DNA of 64,000 nt from Hymenobacter sp. J193 (GTDB lineage: Bacteria > Bacteroidota > Bacteroidia > Cytophagales > Hymenobacteraceae). The notes under the pieces were generated by a model. That model was not told where the DNA came from and ran no database searches. It saw only the letters and a list, made by a program, of their open reading frames with translations. The stretch lies in NCBI RefSeq assembly GCF_024700075.1, contig NZ_JAJONE010000001.1, positions 1,302,001 through 1,366,000 on the forward strand, written 5' to 3'. Made by a program: the position numbers and the translations under genes. This document shows positions 49,149 to 58,566 of this stretch, piece after piece; the stretch's first letter is position 1; every line of letters starts with the position of its first letter.

Positions 49149-51764
49149 ATGAACTTCAATAACTTCACCATCAAGGCCCAGGAGGCCGTGCAGAAGGCCA
49201 CCGAAATTGCCGGCGGCCATCAGCAGCAGGCCATCGAAACGGGCCACCTCCTGAAAGCCCTCTTTCAGGTGGATGAAAACGTGACCGGCTTCCTCGCCAA
49301 GAAGCTCGGCGCCAACCTCAATATCCTCACCCCCCGCCTCGATGCCCAGGTAGAGGCCTACCCCAAGGTAAGCGGCGGCTCCCCCTACCTCGCCAACGAG
49401 GCCGCCAACGCCGTGCAGCGCGCCAACAACTTCCTCAAGGAGTTCGGCGACGAGTACGTAGCCGTGGAGCACCTGCTGCTGGCCCTCGTCGATGGCCGCG
49501 ACGCCACGGCCACCCTGCTCAAGGACACGGGCTTCAATACCAAAGACCTGAAAGCCGCCATCAAAGAGCTGCGGGGCGGCCGCAAAGTCACCTCGCAGTC
49601 GGCCGAGGACCAGTACCAGAGCCTGAACCGCTACGCCCGCAACCTCAACGAGCAAGTGCGCACCGGCAAGATGGACCCCGTCATTGGCCGCGACGAGGAA
49701 ATCCGCCGCGTGCTCCAGATTCTCTCCCGCCGCACCAAGAACAACCCCGTGCTGCTCGGGGAGCCCGGCGTGGGCAAAACCGCCATTGTGGAGGGCCTGG
49801 CCCAGCGCATCGTGGCCGGCGACGTGCCCGAAAACCTCCGCGAGAAAGTCATCATGTCGCTTGATATGGGTCTGCTCATTGCCGGGGCCAAGTACAAGGG
49901 CGAGTTCGAGGAGCGCCTCAAGTCCGTCATCAAGGAAGTCACCGACTCCGAAGGCCAGATCATCCTGTTCATCGATGAGATGCACACCCTGATCGGGGCC
50001 GGCGCGGGCGGCGACGGCGCCATGGACGCGGCCAACCTGCTCAAGCCCGCCCTGGCCCGCGGCGAGCTGCACGCCATCGGGGCCACCACCCTCAAGGAGT
50101 ACCAGAAGTACATTGAGAAGGACAAGGCCCTGGAGCGCCGCTTCCAGGCCGTGATGGTAGATGAGCCCACCATTGAGGACGCCATCAGCATCATGCGCGG
50201 CATCAAGGAGAAGTACGAGCTGCACCACGGCGTGCGCATCACCGACGACGCCGTCATTGCCGCCGTGGAGCTGTCGAGCCGCTACATCACCGACCGTTTC
50301 CTGCCCGACAAGGCCATCGACCTGATGGACGAGGCGGCGGCCAAGCTGCGCATCGAGCTGAACTCCATGCCCGTGGAGCTCGACGAGGTGCAGCGCCGCA
50401 TCATGCAGCTGGAAATTGAGCGCGAAGCCATCCGCCGCGAAGACAACAAGGACCGCGAGGCCGTGCTGAACCGGGAGCTGGCCGAGCTGTCGGAAAAGCG
50501 CGACTCGCTGAAAGCCCGCTGGCAGGGCGAAAAAGACGTGCTGACCAACATTCAGACCGTCAAGGAATCCATTGAACGCTTCAAGGTGGAAGCCGAGCAG
50601 GCCGAGCGGCAGGGCGACTATGGCCGCGTGGCCGAGCTGCGCTACGGCAAGATTCAGGAAGCCGAAGCCAAGCTCAAAACCCTGCAGGAACAAGCCAACG
50701 CCAACAAGGACGGTGGCTCCATGCTCCAGGAAGTGGTAACCCACGAGGACATTGCCGAGGTAGTAGCCAAGTGGACCGGCATTCCGGTGAGCAAGATGCT
50801 GCAGTCGGACCGCGAGAAGCTGCTCAACCTCGAAGCCGAGCTGGGCAAGCGCGTGGCCGGGCAGTCGGAAGCCATTGCGGCTATTTCGGACGCCGTGCGC
50901 CGCTCCCGCGCCGGTTTGCAGGACCCCAAGCGCCCCATCGGCTCATTTATCTTCCTCGGCACCACCGGGGTGGGGAAAACCGAGCTGGCCAAGGCCCTGG
51001 CCGAGTACCTGTTCAACGACGAGAACAGCATGGTGCGCATCGACATGAGCGAGTACCAGGAGCGCCACGCCACCTCGCGCCTGATCGGGGCGCCTCCCGG
51101 CTACGTGGGCTACGACGAGGGCGGGCAGCTCACGGAGGCCGTGCGCCGCAAGCCCTACTCGGTTATCCTGCTCGACGAAATCGAAAAGGCCCACCCCGAC
51201 GTGTTCAACATCCTGCTGCAGGTGCTCGACGACGGCCGCCTCACCGACAACAAGGGTCGGGTGGCCAACTTCAAGAACACCATCATCATCATGACCTCGA
51301 ACACGGGCGCCGACATCATTCAGCGCAATTTCAAGGAGCTGAACGAGTATAACCATGATGAGGTGGTGGACCGCACCCGCGAGGAAGTGGTGGAGCGCCT
51401 CAAGCAGCACATGCGCCCCGAGTTCCTGAACCGCATCGACGAAATCGTGATGTTCCAGCCGCTCAAGCGCAAGGAAATCCGCCGCATCGTTGACATCCAG
51501 TTCCGGCAGATTCAGCAGCGCCTGGAAGAAGCCGGCATCCGCCTGGAAGCCACCACCGAAGTGCTCGACTTCCTCGGCGAGCAGGGCTTCGACCCGCAGT
51601 TCGGCGCCCGCCCGCTCAAGCGCGTCCTGCAGCGGGTAATCCTGAATGAGTTGTCGAAGGAAATCCTGAGCGGCAAAGTCTCGAAGGACGCCGTAGTGGA
51701 AGCCGTGCTCGAAGACGGGCAAGTACATTTCAACAACGTGGACGTGGAAATCCCCGGCGTGTAA
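49149..51764 (+). CDS. clpB: ATP-dependent disaggregase ClpB
   Basis: A protein of 871 residues, full length. The order is: Clp N domain (about 1-145), first AAA+ with [14 protein letters not shown] and [12 protein letters not shown], the middle coiled-coil propeller (about 410-520), and the second AAA+ with [45 protein letters not shown] and [12 protein letters not shown]. It rescues aggregated proteins with DnaK in the cytoplasm. No sigma32-like or CIRCE element was found in the 138 bp upstream. It ends at a strong terminator. Confidence 0.98.
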
Positions 51765-52034: not shown

Positions 52035-52226
52035 ATGGAAAAGCTCAAGAAGTTCCTGCGCCTGCTCGGCCTGATTGCCATGCTGCTGCTAGCCGCCGCG
52101 GGCGTAGGTCTCACGGGGGCCGCCCCCATTCACCAGAAGCGGGAACGGTTTATCGACATCGAGCCCCAGACGGAGCAAGTAGACAAGAAGGAAAACGAGG
52201 AAAGCCAGGAACTCGGGCAGGAATAG
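52035..52226 (+). CDS. Small single-pass membrane protein, 63 aa
   Basis: One N-terminal helix (FLRLLGLIAMLLLAAAGVGLTG) is followed by a highly charged tail (HQKRERFIDIEPQTEQVDKKENEE). A good start sits after the repeat region. The tail-coding segment recurs in degenerate form at 53171-53267. Unknown function; it could be a small regulatory membrane peptide. Confidence 0.6.
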   Translation: MEKLKKFLRLLGLIAMLLLAAAGVGLTGAAPIHQKRERFIDIEPQTEQVDKKENEESQELGQE

Positions 52227-53308: not shown

Positions 53309-53740
53309 CTAAAAATACTTTTTCTTGATGCGTCGCCGAACGCTATTAGGCATTTTTAGAGTCGTAAAATAAGTATCGGAGACTTCCTGTTGCCGGGCTT
53401 TGCTGGTGCCAGCGAGCTTATTGATTGCCACCGTAGCCAAGCCGCCAGAAATAGCGGCAAATACCAGATACAGGCCTACCGGTTGCTCCTTTACAACGGG
53501 GCCGTTTGGAGTAGTACGCGTCTCCGTTAGTACCCGCACGAAAACCAGTGAGCTGGAGGCAGCAATGCCCAACCAGATTTTACCGGCCCGTCGACGGGTG
53601 TTGTACATATTATTCAGCGCCCGCACAGTATCCTGCTGCAGCGGCGACAATCGAGGTGGCGGCGAAGGACTACTGGCGCTCTGCCCGTAGCTCGTTAAAC
53701 AAATGGCGCACGCAATGAGCGTCAAAAGGTATTTGTGCAT
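53309..53740 (-). CDS. Array protein C: one-domain membrane paralogue, 143 aa
   Basis: A signal peptide (MHKYLLTLIACAICLTSYGQ) and a Pro/Ser linker are followed by one copy of the array domain: DTVRALNNMYNTRRRAGKIW, two hydrophobic helices, and a basic end (TLKMPNSVRRRIKKKYF). Same strand and style as the next two genes. The last helix-plus-basic-tail pattern P-x-x-[VI]-R-x-x-[IL] is shared by all copies. No known family recognised. Confidence 0.65.
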   Translation of the reverse strand: MHKYLLTLIACAICLTSYGQSASSPSPPPRLSPLQQDTVRALNNMYNTRRRAGKIWLGIAASSSLVFVRVLTETRTTPNGPVVKEQPVGLYLVFAAISGGLATVAINKLAGTSKARQQEVSDTYFTTLKMPNSVRRRIKKKYF

Positions 53741-53794
53741 ATGGAGTTGAATAATTAAGTCAGCAAGTAATGTGAGTGAGCAACCAGGTTAAGC

Positions 53795-54199
53795 CTACAG
53801 CTGAAAGTGCCGGTGTCGCAGTTTATGGCGGATGGCCTTGGGCAGCGGCTTACCGTGCAAATAATCATTTTGCAACGCGTGTTCTCTTGCCTGGCTCCAC
53901 CGGCTACTTTTAGCCAAACTAAAGCCGGTGAGCATGACGCCGCCAAGAAGGATTGAGGAGGTTCCGCCCTGTGCGGAGTTGAAAAAGATACTCGCCCCTA
54001 CCCCCAGCACAATAAGTCCGGGAATCCGCAGCAGCCTGGCCCCGGCCCGGCGCTGGCTAAACAATTTGCCCACGGCCTGGGCCGAATCAGCTGCCACCGG
54101 CGCACTTTCCACGGCGGAATCGGGAAGTAAGAGTTGCTGCGCACGGCCGGGCACCAGCAGCCCCAGCAGGCAGGCTAGTAATAACAGATAGCACCGCAT
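53795..54199 (-). CDS. Array protein B: one-domain membrane paralogue, 134 aa
   Basis: A signal peptide (MRCYLLLLACLLGLLVPGRAQ), then DSAQAVGKLFSQRRAGARLL, two Gly-rich hydrophobic helices (LIVLGVGASIFF; SILLGGVMLTGFSLA), and the tail YLHGKPLPKAIRHKLRHRHF. It ends in the RHF motif also seen at the end of the second domain of protein A. It lies 54 bp upstream of protein C, so they are probably cotranscribed. Confidence 0.68.
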   Translation of the reverse strand: MRCYLLLLACLLGLLVPGRAQQLLLPDSAVESAPVAADSAQAVGKLFSQRRAGARLLRIPGLIVLGVGASIFFNSAQGGTSSILLGGVMLTGFSLAKSSRWSQAREHALQNDYLHGKPLPKAIRHKLRHRHFQL

Positions 54200-54419
54200 A
54201 GTTGTGTTGGTTGTATACGGGTGCAGAAAGCAAGAGCCCTACGCTAGGGGAGCAATAAGTAGCAGACAGATTAGCGGCGCAAGGTAGGCGGTAGCGGCTA
54301 GGAAACCCTGAAGCGCAGGAATGCGGTGTTGCAGCAGCTGCTCATCAACTATCCAATCCTTTTACACCAGCTTATAGCCGCTTAATCCGGCAGCCGATGA
54401 GTATGATTAACCCGTCGTT

Positions 54420-55328
54420 CTACCGGCGCCGGCGGGCTTCTCTTCGGGCCAGCCGGGCTTTCCACAGGCCGGCTTTGGCAAAGTGGCGCGGCTGCAGCTG
54501 CGCCCGGTACTGCGCTGGAATTGGCGCCCCTGCAGCACACGCAGCGTGCAGGGCGTTGAGCTTTTCGTAGCTGTAGGTAGTGTGCCGGACCAGCATATAC
54601 GTAAGGCCCACCCCAGCCAGCCCCAGCCCAGCCGCAACCGCGCCGCCCGAAGCCGGCGTTTCGTCCCAACTGCCTGTGACGGGATTGTATTCGCGGGTGC
54701 CGCCGGACATCAGGCTCAGGCCGGGCAACGCCAGGGCCAGCGGCCATTCTCCACTTACCCGCTTCATCATAAACAGCGCCGTAACGGCATCCAGTGTATC
54801 CTGCCGGGCATTGGCCAGAACTTGCTCGGGCATGAGTTGGGCGGCACTCCGCCGCAGGCTGTCCGTGCCGATACCGGGTGCCAATAGCGGGTTTTCCTCA
54901 TTGGCGGTACCGGGTATAGGCCGGTGGATGCCCCGCAGGCGGCGGCTGACATAAGCCGGCAGATGGCCCGTAAGCGCCAGCTCGCGCATGACGGCCGTTT
55001 CGTTTTTTCGCTTAAACCGCACACTCTTACCTACGCCTACGCCCACCAACGCCGCGCCGCCCACTACCCCCGGCGTCCAGACCCCGGCGCTGGTTGATTG
55101 TTGCGCCGGTAGAATTGCCGCCAACATACCCACCGTGCCTACTATCGGCCAGATAAAGCCGCCACTACGCCGGCTCCTGAACAATTCGTGCACGGCCCGG
55201 GCCGTATCGGCACGGCTCAGGCGGGACTCAGTCAGGTAAGCGGGTGGCAGCGAGGGTGTGGGGGCCTGCGCGTGGCCTTCCAGGGCTAAACCGAGCACCA
55301 GCAGGCTCAACATAAAATATCTATACAT
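54420..55328 (-). CDS. Array protein A: two-domain membrane paralogue, 302 aa
   Basis: After a signal peptide (MYRYFMLSLLVLGLALEGHAQ) the protein carries the array domain twice. Copy 1, about residues 38-135, runs from DTARAVHELFRSRRSGGFIW to LPAYVSRRLRGIH. Copy 2, about 175-285, runs from DTLDAVTALFMMKRVSGEWP to IPAQYRAQLQPRHF. Each has a pair of Gly/Val-rich hydrophobic helices between a Arg/Lys-rich entry helix and a basic exit. It may be an envelope membrane protein; the function is unknown. Confidence 0.7.
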   Translation of the reverse strand: MYRYFMLSLLVLGLALEGHAQAPTPSLPPAYLTESRLSRADTARAVHELFRSRRSGGFIWPIVGTVGMLAAILPAQQSTSAGVWTPGVVGGAALVGVGVGKSVRFKRKNETAVMRELALTGHLPAYVSRRLRGIHRPIPGTANEENPLLAPGIGTDSLRRSAAQLMPEQVLANARQDTLDAVTALFMMKRVSGEWPLALALPGLSLMSGGTREYNPVTGSWDETPASGGAVAAGLGLAGVGLTYMLVRHTTYSYEKLNALHAACAAGAPIPAQYRAQLQPRHFAKAGLWKARLARREARRRR

Positions 55329-55409
55329 ACATCAACCAGAATGCAAACTGCTTAAGTCGGTGCAAAATATCAGAAAGCCGCGAGAAAGCCGCTATGTTGG
55401 CCGCGCTTG

Positions 55410-55417
55410 TACTTTTG
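55410..55417 (+). promoter_or_regulatory. -7 box abutting the HupE/UreJ-like start
   Basis: TACTTTTG is a perfect TAnnTTTG match ending 4 bp before the ATG at 55422, so transcription would begin at or next to the start codon. Confidence 0.45.
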
Positions 55418-55421
55418 CCCT

Positions 55422-56025
55422 ATGGCCTCCACGTTTCAGACTTACCTCCAGCTCGGCTTCTTCCACATCTTCAACCTGCAGGCCTACGACCACCTCGTGT
55501 TTCTGCTGGCGCTATGTGCGCCCTACGTGCTGCAGGACTGGCGCCGCGTGGTGGCGCTGGTTACCAGCTTCACCCTCGGCCACTCCCCTCACCCTGGCCC
55601 TGGCCACGCTGAGCGTGGTGCAGTACTCGCCCCAGGTTATTGAGGTGCTGATTCCGGTGACGATAGTGCTGACGTGCCTGCTGAACCTGACCCGCGCCGG
55701 CCGCCCTACTGCCCGGCCGGTGTTGCGCCCGGCGCCGGAGCCGGTGGTGCTGGCCTGGCCCAACCTGCTGGCCGCCGTGTTCGGGCTGATTCACGGCCTT
55801 GGGTTTTCCAGCTACCTGCGCGAGCTGCTGGGCCACCAGAGCCGCCCGGTGCTGGAACTGCTGGCGTTCAATGTGGGCGTGGAACTGGGCCAGCTGCTGA
55901 TCGTAGCGCTGATTCTGCTGCTCGGGGCCCTGCTGCTGCGCGGCCTCGGCGTAGCCCGCCGCGACTGGCTCCTGGTCGTCAGCGGCGCCGCCCTGGGCAT
56001 CGCGCTGGTGCTCCTGGTGAAATAG
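55422..56025 (+). CDS. HupE/UreJ-family membrane protein, frame broken at a C4 run
   Basis: From ATG 55422: MASTFQTYLQLGFFHIFNLQAYDHLVFLLALCAPY, then VTSFTLGHS, after which the frame is lost. Dropping one C at 55585-55588 gives LTLALATLSVVQYSPQ and the rest (FGLIHGLGFSSYLRELL; LLLGALLLRGLG) to the stop at 56025. The family signature GHS-LTLA with His, and FGLIHGLGF, is then complete, and the protein is 200 aa with about six helices. The span is 604 nt, one over a multiple of three. HupE/UreJ proteins are often nickel-related secondary transporters. Likely sequence error. Confidence 0.87.
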
Positions 56026-56030
56026 TAAAA

Positions 56031-56117
56031 TGGTGAGTTGGCGTCCTGACCGCGCCATATGCGCAGAGCTGTGCCAACAGAACGTCAAGCTCACCATTTC
56101 ACCAGCTCACTGTCTCA
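56031..56117. repeat. GGTGAG/CTCACC short inverted and direct repeats
   Basis: AAATGGTGAG at 56028-56037 is complementary to CTCACCATTT at 56090-56099. CTCACCAT recurs at 56113. It resembles the short-unit intergenic repeats at 15773 and 60857 in organisation. Confidence 0.45.
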
Positions 56118-56223
56118 CCATCTTTCCGCCCGTGCAACTTCTGGCACTTTGCCGGTGACTTTACCTGTTATCTGCCGGTTTTCCTGTACTTTTTCGCCTC
56201 GCTACACGCATTCACGCTTTTCA

Positions 56224-58566
56224 ATGCTAAAACATCTTTTACGCTCGGCCGCTCTGGCCGCGCTGGCCGCCGGCCCCCTGGCGGCCCAAACTACCAACTC
56301 CGGCACCGATAAGTTTGCCCAGCTGGGCCAGGAGCTGCCCACGCCCAACACCTACCGTACCGCCTCGGGGGCGCCCGGCAGCCAGTACTGGCAGCAGCGC
56401 GCCGACTACAACATCCAGGTAAAGCTCGACGACGAGAAGCAGGCCATTACCGGATCGGAGGACATTACCTACACCAACCTCTCGCCCGACGTACTCACTT
56501 ACCTGTGGGTGCAGCTCGACCAGAACATCATGGACAAAACGTCCATCACCCAGGCCACGGAGGTGGGCGAGTTGTCGGACCGCATGTCGTTTCGGGGGCT
56601 GGAATACCTGATGAACTCGGACTTTGAGGGCGGCTTCAAGATTTCGGAGGTGAAGCTGAAAGGCGGCAAGGCCCTGCCCCACGTCATCAACCACACCATG
56701 ATGCGCATCGACCTGCCCACGCCCCTGCGGCCCAAGCAAGCCGTGACGTTCAGCATCAAGTGGAGCTACAACATCAACGACCAGCTGAAAATAAACCAGC
56801 GCAGCGGCTACGAGTATTTCCCCGAGGACAAGAACTACCTCTACGAAATTGCCCAGTTCTACCCGCGCATGGCCGTGTACTCCGATTTCCAGGGCTGGCA
56901 GCACAAGCAGTTTCTGGGCACCGGAGAGTTTGCCCTGCCCTTCGGCGACTACCGCGTGAGCATCACCGCCCCCGCCGACCACGTGGTGGGCGCTACCGGC
57001 GTGCTGCAGAACCCCAACGAAGTGCTGAGCGCCGCCCAGCGCCAGCGCCTCGAAAAAGCCAAGAACACCAAAACCCCGGTGCTCATCGTGAGCCAGCAGG
57101 AAGCCGAAGCCGCCGAGCAGAAGCGCGCCAAAGGCACCAAAACCTGGACCTACGCCGCCAAAAACGTGCGCGATTTTGCCTGGGCTTCTTCACGCAAGTT
57201 TATCTGGGACGCCATGCAGATCAAGCAGGCGGGCAAGCCGGTGATGTGCATGAGCTACTATCCCAAGGAAGGCAACCCGCTGTGGGGCCAGTACTCCACC
57301 GAAGTGGTGGCGCACACCATCAAAACCTACTCCAAGTTCACCATCGACTACGAATACCCGGTGGCTATTTCGGTGCACGGGCCGGTGGGCGGCATGGAGT
57401 ATCCCATGATTTGCTTTAATGGCGGCCGCCCCGAGAAGGACGGCACCTACTCGGCCGAGCGGAAGTACGGCATGATTTCGGTGATTATTCACGAAGTAGG
57501 CCACAACTTCTTTCCCATGATCATCAACTCCGACGAGCGGCAGTGGTCGTGGCTGGATGAGGGCCTGAACACCTTTGTGCAGTTCCTGACCGAGCAGGAA
57601 TGGGAGCGGAACTACCCCTCCCGCCGCGGCGAGCCGAAGCTGATTGTGGACTACATGCGCACCGGCAAAAATGTGCAGACGCCCATCATGACGAACTCGG
57701 AATCGGTGCTGCAGTTTGGGCCCAATGCCTACGCCAAGCCCGCCACCGGCCTCAACATCCTGCGCGAAACCATCCTGGGCCGTCAGCTCTTCGACTATGC
57801 CTTCAAGGAATACGCGCGTCGCTGGGCCTACAAGCACCCTGAGCCTGCCGACTTCTTCCGCACCATGGAAGACGCCTCCGGCACCGACCTCGACTGGTTC
57901 TGGCGCGGCTGGTTCTACACCACCGACCACACCGACCTGGCTATTGAGGGCGTGAAGTGGTACACCGTCGACTCGAAGAACCCCGAAATCGAGAATGCCC
58001 GCAAGCGGGAGCAACTGAACGCCGCGCCCAAAACGCTTTCCCAGCAGCGCAACCTGCAGGACATCAAGCGCACGTTGGTGGATGACAAGCCCCAGCTCAA
58101 GGACTTCTACAACGCCTACGACCCGCTGGCCGCCACCGAGGCCGACAAAAAGCGCTACCAGGACTACGTGGCCAAGCTCACGCCCGAGCAGCAAAAGCGC
58201 CTGAGCAGCGGCCTGCACTTCTACGAGGTGAGCCTGAAAAACCTGGGTGGCCTCACCATGCCCGTGGTGGTGCAGATGACCTACGAGGACGGCAAGCAGG
58301 AAGTGGTGAACATTCCGGCCGAAATCTGGCGCAAGAACAACGCGCAGGTAACCAAGGTGTTCATCACCGAAAAGCCCGTGGTAAGCTTCGTGCTGGACCC
58401 CTTCCTGGAAACCGCCGACACGGACCTGAGCAACAACGCCTACCCGAACCGGGCCGCGCCCTCGCGCTTCGAACTGTTTGAGCAGCAGCAGCGCGCCCAG
58501 CCCAATCCCATGCAGCAGACTTCGCAGCAGAAGCCGGCTGGCACCACCGGCACGGGCGGCAACTAA
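56224..58566 (+). CDS. M1 family zinc aminopeptidase
   Basis: A protein of 780 residues from ATG 56224 with a signal peptide (MLKHLLRSAALAALAAGPLAAQ), hence periplasmic or outer-membrane facing. The exopeptidase-type motif appears as GGMEYP. The zinc site is HEVGH with His423, Glu424 and His427, and the third ligand is Glu446 in WLDEGLNTF, the exact M1 spacing. The C-terminus is a Gln/Pro-rich low-complexity tail. It removes N-terminal amino acids from peptides. Monocistronic with a terminator. Confidence 0.95.
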   Translation: MLKHLLRSAALAALAAGPLAAQTTNSGTDKFAQLGQELPTPNTYRTASGAPGSQYWQQRADYNIQVKLDDEKQAITGSEDITYTNLSPDVLTYLWVQLDQNIMDKTSITQATEVGELSDRMSFRGLEYLMNSDFEGGFKISEVKLKGGKALPHVINHTMMRIDLPTPLRPKQAVTFSIKWSYNINDQLKINQRSGYEYFPEDKNYLYEIAQFYPRMAVYSDFQGWQHKQFLGTGEFALPFGDYRVSITAPADHVVGATGVLQNPNEVLSAAQRQRLEKAKNTKTPVLIVSQQEAEAAEQKRAKGTKTWTYAAKNVRDFAWASSRKFIWDAMQIKQAGKPVMCMSYYPKEGNPLWGQYSTEVVAHTIKTYSKFTIDYEYPVAISVHGPVGGMEYPMICFNGGRPEKDGTYSAERKYGMISVIIHEVGHNFFPMIINSDERQWSWLDEGLNTFVQFLTEQEWERNYPSRRGEPKLIVDYMRTGKNVQTPIMTNSESVLQFGPNAYAKPATGLNILRETILGRQLFDYAFKEYARRWAYKHPEPADFFRTMEDASGTDLDWFWRGWFYTTDHTDLAIEGVKWYTVDSKNPEIENARKREQLNAAPKTLSQQRNLQDIKRTLVDDKPQLKDFYNAYDPLAATEADKKRYQDYVAKLTPEQQKRLSSGLHFYEVSLKNLGGLTMPVVVQMTYEDGKQEVVNIPAEIWRKNNAQVTKVFITEKPVVSFVLDPFLETADTDLSNNAYPNRAAPSRFELFEQQQRAQPNPMQQTSQQKPAGTTGTGGN

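Follow-up and report, generated by a model that had tools for sequence, protein, structure and literature searches.

A stretch of 64,000 nucleotides from Hymenobacter sp. J193 (contig NZ_JAJONE010000001.1, positions 1,302,001 to 1,366,000; hereafter the window) harbours three adjacent minus-strand genes, termed here A, B and C, which together carry four copies of one domain of about 115 residues, two of them in gene A and one each in genes B and C. The domain defines a real, uncurated and lineage-restricted protein family with a fixed chromosomal address, for which an envelope role is plausible judging from the sequences. The genes and domain copies are as follows.

54420..55328, minus strand: gene A, 302 residues, an open reading frame (ORF) with a signal-peptide-like N-terminus, domain copies A1 and A2 (two profile matches) and a basic C-terminal tail.
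54921..55259, minus strand: domain copy A1, residues 24-136 of gene A, profile score 133.9 bits, with the tip PAQQSTSAGVWTPG.
54480..54851, minus strand: domain copy A2, residues 160-283 of gene A, profile score 110.2 bits.
53795..54199, minus strand: gene B, 134 residues, an ORF with a signal-peptide-like N-terminus and one domain copy (residues 21-132; profile score 94.4 bits), also modelled.
53309..53740, minus strand: gene C, 143 residues, an ORF with a signal-peptide-like N-terminus and one domain copy (residues 20-143; profile score 95.3 bits).

The original prediction, made from the sequence of this region, was that three minus-strand genes carry four copies of one domain, and it is confirmed by the ORFs, the shuffle scores and the profile searches alike. 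The local alignment scores of the pairs A1-B, A1-C, A2-B and B-C were reached by none of 2000 shuffles each, those of A1-A2 and A2-C by 5 and 4 of 2000, respectively. When gene B was searched against its own genome, the E value was 7.9e-9 for A1 and 0.005 for A2. A family profile built from 60 of 74 domain matches, the four copies of the window among them, found these copies in the whole genome at E values from 1.3e-39 to 2.1e-26, the next-best places being at E 0.013 and 0.22. A profile of the four copies alone, the check proposed together with the prediction, detected both domains in orthologues of gene A from other genomes, with a weak second copy in locus L031. The layout that had been described is in need of some correction: the RHF ending is present in A2 and B, whereas A1 ends in RGIHRP and C in KKKYF, and the hydrophobic helices, said to be rich in Gly and Val, are not so in C, whose first hydrophobic stretch is rich in Ala and Ser. 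The remark that no known family was recognised is borne out in the Pfam, NCBIfam, PADLOC, PDB-sequence and Foldseek libraries, as none of these searches named a family for it and the predicted models gave no Foldseek match at E ≤ 0.001, PDB included. The searches made of open-licence papers gave nothing on the family.

The family is widespread in the genus and rare beyond it. The nearest named relative of gene B is that of H. lutimineralis (80%), all 28 named loci found for gene A are titled Hymenobacter, and the protein search with gene A gave, among the best 120 of 182 matches, mostly Hymenobacter names, along with one Janthinobacterium lividum label and one Bacteroidota. The family profile matched 115 of the 120 Hymenobacter genomes at E ≤ 1e-5, with a median of at least 3 and a maximum of at least 9 matches per matched genome and two or more in 104 of the 115, all these counts being lower bounds (38 candidates scored per genome); gene A alone matched 106 of the 120 at E ≤ 0.01. 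Within the order, the profile matched 43 of 291 genomes, belonging to 7 of the 115 genera sampled (15 candidates per genome), and in the phylum sample 4 of 395 genomes, every one from the same order and none from outside it, although this search was coarse and distant relatives may be missed because only 11 candidates were scored per genome. A mobile origin was considered and rejected, since no family relative was confirmed on viral contigs and gene A had no match on plasmids.

The chromosomal address of the array is defined by the following plus-strand genes.

49149..51764, plus strand: clpB, the tail-to-tail neighbour of the array, marking the conserved slot (Pfam Clp_N, AAA, AAA_2 and ClpB_D2-small).
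55258..56025, plus strand: HupE/UreJ_2-like gene, which bounds the array opposite clpB (its second part matches Pfam HupE_UreJ_2 at E 1.6e-26).
56059..58566, plus strand: M1 peptidase gene, the second flank of the slot (Pfam Peptidase_M1, E 1.6e-16).

In 40 fetched loci, selected for carrying the domain, clustering of the neighbouring genes placed clpB in at least 35 (a lower bound, as L084 also holds a clpB overlooked by the clustering), the HupE/UreJ_2 gene in 28 and the M1 peptidase in 27; loci L110-L112, which come from other bacterial families, have none of the three in their clustered neighbourhoods. Wherever both clpB and hupE were found, all the domain genes lie between the two (26 of 26 loci). 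The distance to clpB was taken for 86 of the 115 matched genomes, with domain places among the stronger matches listed, one genome being without a clpB match. In 81 of the remaining 85, the best-scoring member is no more than 20 kb away from clpB (median distance 2.1 kb), and it is tail-to-tail with clpB in all 81; the exceptions are G045 (20.5 kb), G055 (29 kb), G058 (244 kb) and G099 (a different contig). Recurring multi-copy arrays, which had been named as support for a family, do occur: 36 of 37 loci from the window's own bacterial family contain two or more domain matches. Other paralogues occupy recurring slots of their own: in 4 loci they are next to accB/accC-like and dihydrolipoamide-acyltransferase-like genes, in 3 loci they are flanked by alanine-dehydrogenase-like and flavin-reductase-like genes, and in 2 loci they lie between holB-like and neighbouring genes, with hemC. 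The names of these neighbours were read from the sequences and not from family searches.

A quick tree of 115 domain rows and 120 columns, in which 44 of 112 inner branches are open and from which L100, L102 and all domain matches shorter than about 86 residues were left out, was used to trace the history of the copies. The A1 domains form a clade of 25 (SH-like approximate likelihood ratio test, SH-aLRT, 99). Those of A2 group in a clade of 26 (SH-aLRT 98) that also takes in stand-alone genes of L098, L099 and L108. As A1 and A2 thus fall into separate cross-species clades, the sequences identify the four copies as old separate lineages, two of which are fused in gene A. The original prediction of local duplication, fusion and maintained function stands in its last two parts, whereas a recent local duplication is contradicted: a single clade of the window's four copies and those of its nearest relative was rejected by the approximately unbiased (AU) test (p-AU 5.5e-9). 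Maintained function is indicated by ratios of non-synonymous to synonymous substitution (dN/dS) of about 0.18 for gene A and 0.19 for gene B against the nearest relative, which places both under purifying selection. Gene C appears to be a replaced or fast-diverging copy, because it shares 40% identity with the third gene of the nearest relative at a near-saturated dS of 2.65 and stands apart from it on the tree, albeit with a long branch and an unsure place of its own. In L095-L097 the second domain after A1 groups with C-type singles on the quick tree; a partner swap is nevertheless not claimed, since one clade of all second domains was not rejected (p-AU 0.364).

Single-chain AlphaFold2 models were computed for gene B from 66 sequences (41 of 49 single-domain ORFs plus 25 domain rows, with fragments, overlapping frames and one near-duplicate excluded) and for gene A from 26 of 27 two-domain genes, L102 being excluded. 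The model of gene B (predicted local distance difference test, pLDDT, 80; predicted template modelling score, pTM, 0.60) has helices at residues 34-74, 81-100, 103-114 and 121-126, and that of gene A (pLDDT 73, pTM 0.54) contains the same layout twice, with a beta-hairpin between the two hydrophobic helices in copy A2. The layout common to all three modelled domains starts with a long helix, in which the conserved part D-T-x-x-A-V-x-x-L-F-x-x-R-R is continuous with hydrophobic segment 1; a loop leads from there into hydrophobic segment 2, after which comes a basic helix-turn-helix cap bearing the motif G-x-x-L-P-x-x-I-R-R-R-L. The most conserved positions (D38, A42, F47, R51, P120 and L127 in gene B numbering) fall within the C-terminal cap and the initial portion of the long helix; these two regions would come together at one side of the hairpin.

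The tip of A1, PAQQSTSAGVWTPG (about 55070-55115, minus strand), is strongly conserved in 25 of 26 gene-A orthologues, L107 being the exception. This inter-helix loop is more conserved than most of the head, which is unusual for the tip of a hairpin. Its conservation suggests a contact site, and the tip may mark a binding partner.

Proteins A, B and C are likely exported. In Bacteroidota, signal-peptidase I sites of the [AGS]Q type are common, and of the 69 proteins whose start is usable, 57 carry [AGS]Q between residues 14 and 30. The shuffle mean was 16.3 (maximum 27 in 500 shuffles), and stretches further along these proteins gave 4-23. Of 41 single-domain proteins, 5 have a Cys at residues 15-28, with Gln following the likely cleavage site instead; in genes B and C a Cys lies inside the signal peptide's hydrophobic core (residues 10-14), earlier than a lipobox would normally place it. 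Each domain has two hydrophobic segments of about 15 residues (Kyte-Doolittle medians 2.0 and 1.67), and these, together with the signal-peptide-like N-termini, point to an envelope location. All 41 mature single-domain proteins are net basic. Counted over 115 domains, the two hairpin flanks carry a net positive charge in 94 and 113, respectively; 11 tips have a net positive and 49 a net negative charge. A signal peptide would bring the head into the periplasm, so that the ordinary mode of insertion into the inner membrane would violate the positive-inside rule; basic flanks with a mostly neutral or acidic tip fit better with insertion from the periplasm or with no insertion. The signal-peptide-like N-termini and the charge pattern, the main basis of the preferred model, suggest that the hairpin enters a membrane from the periplasmic side, perhaps the outer membrane.

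The model preferred here, which is tentative and draws on the sequences and predicted structures, is that the family comprises basic exported two-helix hairpins that enter a membrane, probably the outer one, from the periplasmic side and stabilise the envelope. A, B and C would be strongly basic, probably Sec-exported proteins of two, one and one domain copies, from which signal peptidase I would cleave the leader before Gln, both ends of the protein remaining periplasmic. The weakly hydrophobic hairpin could then evade the Sec stop-transfer and enter the membrane from its periplasmic face, by which an inner-membrane placement with the positive charges on the wrong side would be avoided; the target would probably be the outer membrane and the effect a stabilisation of the envelope. 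In the weakest step, the copies might assemble side by side, with gene A as a tandem subunit, and guard the envelope in a manner comparable to SlyB.

Several observations weigh against this model. The tip is not always neutral, being without charge in 38 of 115 domains, and an additive insertion estimate is above zero for every segment, the first one of A2 being the worst. No lipid anchor that would send the proteins to the outer membrane was seen, and the slot beside clpB gives nothing direct on function. GxxxG is not clearly enriched in the two segments: in segment 1 there are 29 observed and 31.8 in shuffled sequences, in segment 2 the figures are 68 and 52.8 (standard deviation 5.9, maximum 73), and for [GAS]xxx[GAS] 308 against 276.9 and 226 against 198.4, all from related rows that are not independent. 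True PF05433/PF13488 proteins, searched for with both profiles, are encoded elsewhere in the genome (G000:C1 1216849, 3102605 and 3103566), which weakens the idea that the Hymenobacter family takes the place of SlyB, as a SlyB-like role may already be filled by these genuine glycine-zipper proteins.

The weak hydrophobicity of the segments is compatible with a soluble protein too, and it speaks for soluble or peripheral helical bundles of the periplasm in which the Gly/Ala-rich helices pack against one another or between copies and the basic head binds an anionic partner such as peptidoglycan, the lipid A core or nucleic acid. This is nonetheless unlikely, since segments of about 15 residues at the above Kyte-Doolittle medians would be unusual on a soluble monomer, and the second half of the predicted long helix pairs with segment 2 only. 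The same weak hydrophobicity counts against a hairpin in the inner membrane that has periplasmic heads and serves some complex of that membrane as a small scaffold or as a regulator. In this arrangement, moreover, the basic flanks would face outwards and the tip, which is mostly neutral or acidic, would face inwards, contrary to the positive-inside rule; it therefore seems somewhat doubtful.

Membrane-active proteins for antagonism or self-targeting, bacteriocin- or holin-like and diversified in an arms race, might likewise be envisaged from the basic hairpins, the replaced or fast-diverging gene C (which also gave a sub-threshold match to a bacteriocin model, E 0.032), the broken or fragmentary domain copies of L102 and a non-significant fold likeness to SLATT two-transmembrane (2TM) effectors, whose models in the viral Foldseek library appeared at E 1.3, 1.4 and 4.0. 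Such a role is, however, highly improbable in view of the fixed slot in 81 of 85 genomes, the purifying selection on A and B and the lack of a confirmed relative on viral contigs or plasmids. In addition, only two PADLOC models were matched, by one family member each (best E 0.01), and no recurrent immunity partner was detected in the clustered neighbourhoods of the 40 loci.

A few features of the surroundings deserve mention. Likely toxin-antitoxin pairs, made up of PIN-domain genes and small partners, turn up repeatedly inside or beside the clpB-hupE interval, as c13/c15 in L087, L090, L096, L099, L101 and L105 and as c10/c12 in L078, L080, L082 and others; the interval looks like a spot of gene turnover. 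The frame of the HupE/UreJ_2-like gene is apparently broken near 55590, its start lying in ORF 55407-55643 and the remainder in the 55258-56025 frame; the gene is a single intact ORF in the relatives, and the break could reflect either a genuine frameshift or an error in sequencing. Between clpB and the array, an ORF of 63 residues (52035-52226, plus strand) encodes one hydrophobic helix and an acidic tail, and was found at the equivalent position in 6 of 40 loci. The Bacteroidota -7 promoter motif, TAnnTTTG, is present in the 150 bp preceding 7 of the 22 genes of type A (shuffles: mean 1.1, maximum 5) and 3 of 28 single genes (mean 1.0, maximum 6), and is absent within that distance upstream of genes A, B and C of the window.

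With its old paralogue lineages, predicted fold and reproducible address, this unannotated and, in Hymenobacter, near-universal family can now be named, curated and tested; if the hairpins do reside in the outer membrane, the Bacteroidota would gain a rare class of helical proteins there. Among known systems, DUF4235 is similar in name only: UniRef gives this name to three gene-A homologues (P0035, P0085 and P0108) and the name DUF4231 to one homologue (P0136). Both labels are unsupported, because Pfam scans up to E 10 gave no DUF4231 in P0136 and no DUF4235 in the other three, nor was DUF4235 found in A, B or C. The SLATT/DUF4231 2TM effectors share with the predicted fold of the Hymenobacter family the order of a helix, two membrane helices and further helices. 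SLATT proteins act from the cytoplasm and have no signal peptide, in contrast to the signal-peptide-like N-terminus found here, and no DUF4231 or SLATT profile matched A, B or C or was among 25 of the 31 Pfam families listed for 66 family members.

In build, the likely exported hairpins resemble SlyB and the glycine-zipper 2TM families (PF05433, PF13488), whose small exported proteins likewise combine a polar head with two hydrophobic helices rich in Gly/Ala. SlyB is described as a lipoprotein, and ring-shaped transmembrane complexes in the outer membrane are reported for it (PMC13067283; cited for this comparison beside PMC13082787), whereas the Hymenobacter family has no lipobox at the expected place. 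Membership in the glycine-zipper families was rejected, as there is no usual lipobox and no match of the PF05433 and PF13488 profiles in A, B and C up to E 10 or, at E ≤ 1, for the 66 members among the same 25 of 31 listed families. The GxxxG counts given above show no clear enrichment. Outside the window, at G000:C1:3102605-3103709, two of the genuine PF13488/PF05433 proteins stand in tandem, and similar pairs are present in other genomes of the genus. A SlyB-like guard role for the family is thus offered, by analogy, as a hypothesis only. In its boldest form, which we regard as distinctly unlikely, the Cytophagales, and chiefly Hymenobacter, would possess an unrelated alpha-helical hairpin system of their own, cationic and free of lipid anchors, with diversified paralogues in fixed slots and a tandem-fused subunit beside clpB, which would tile and protect the outer membrane as SlyB does in enterics.
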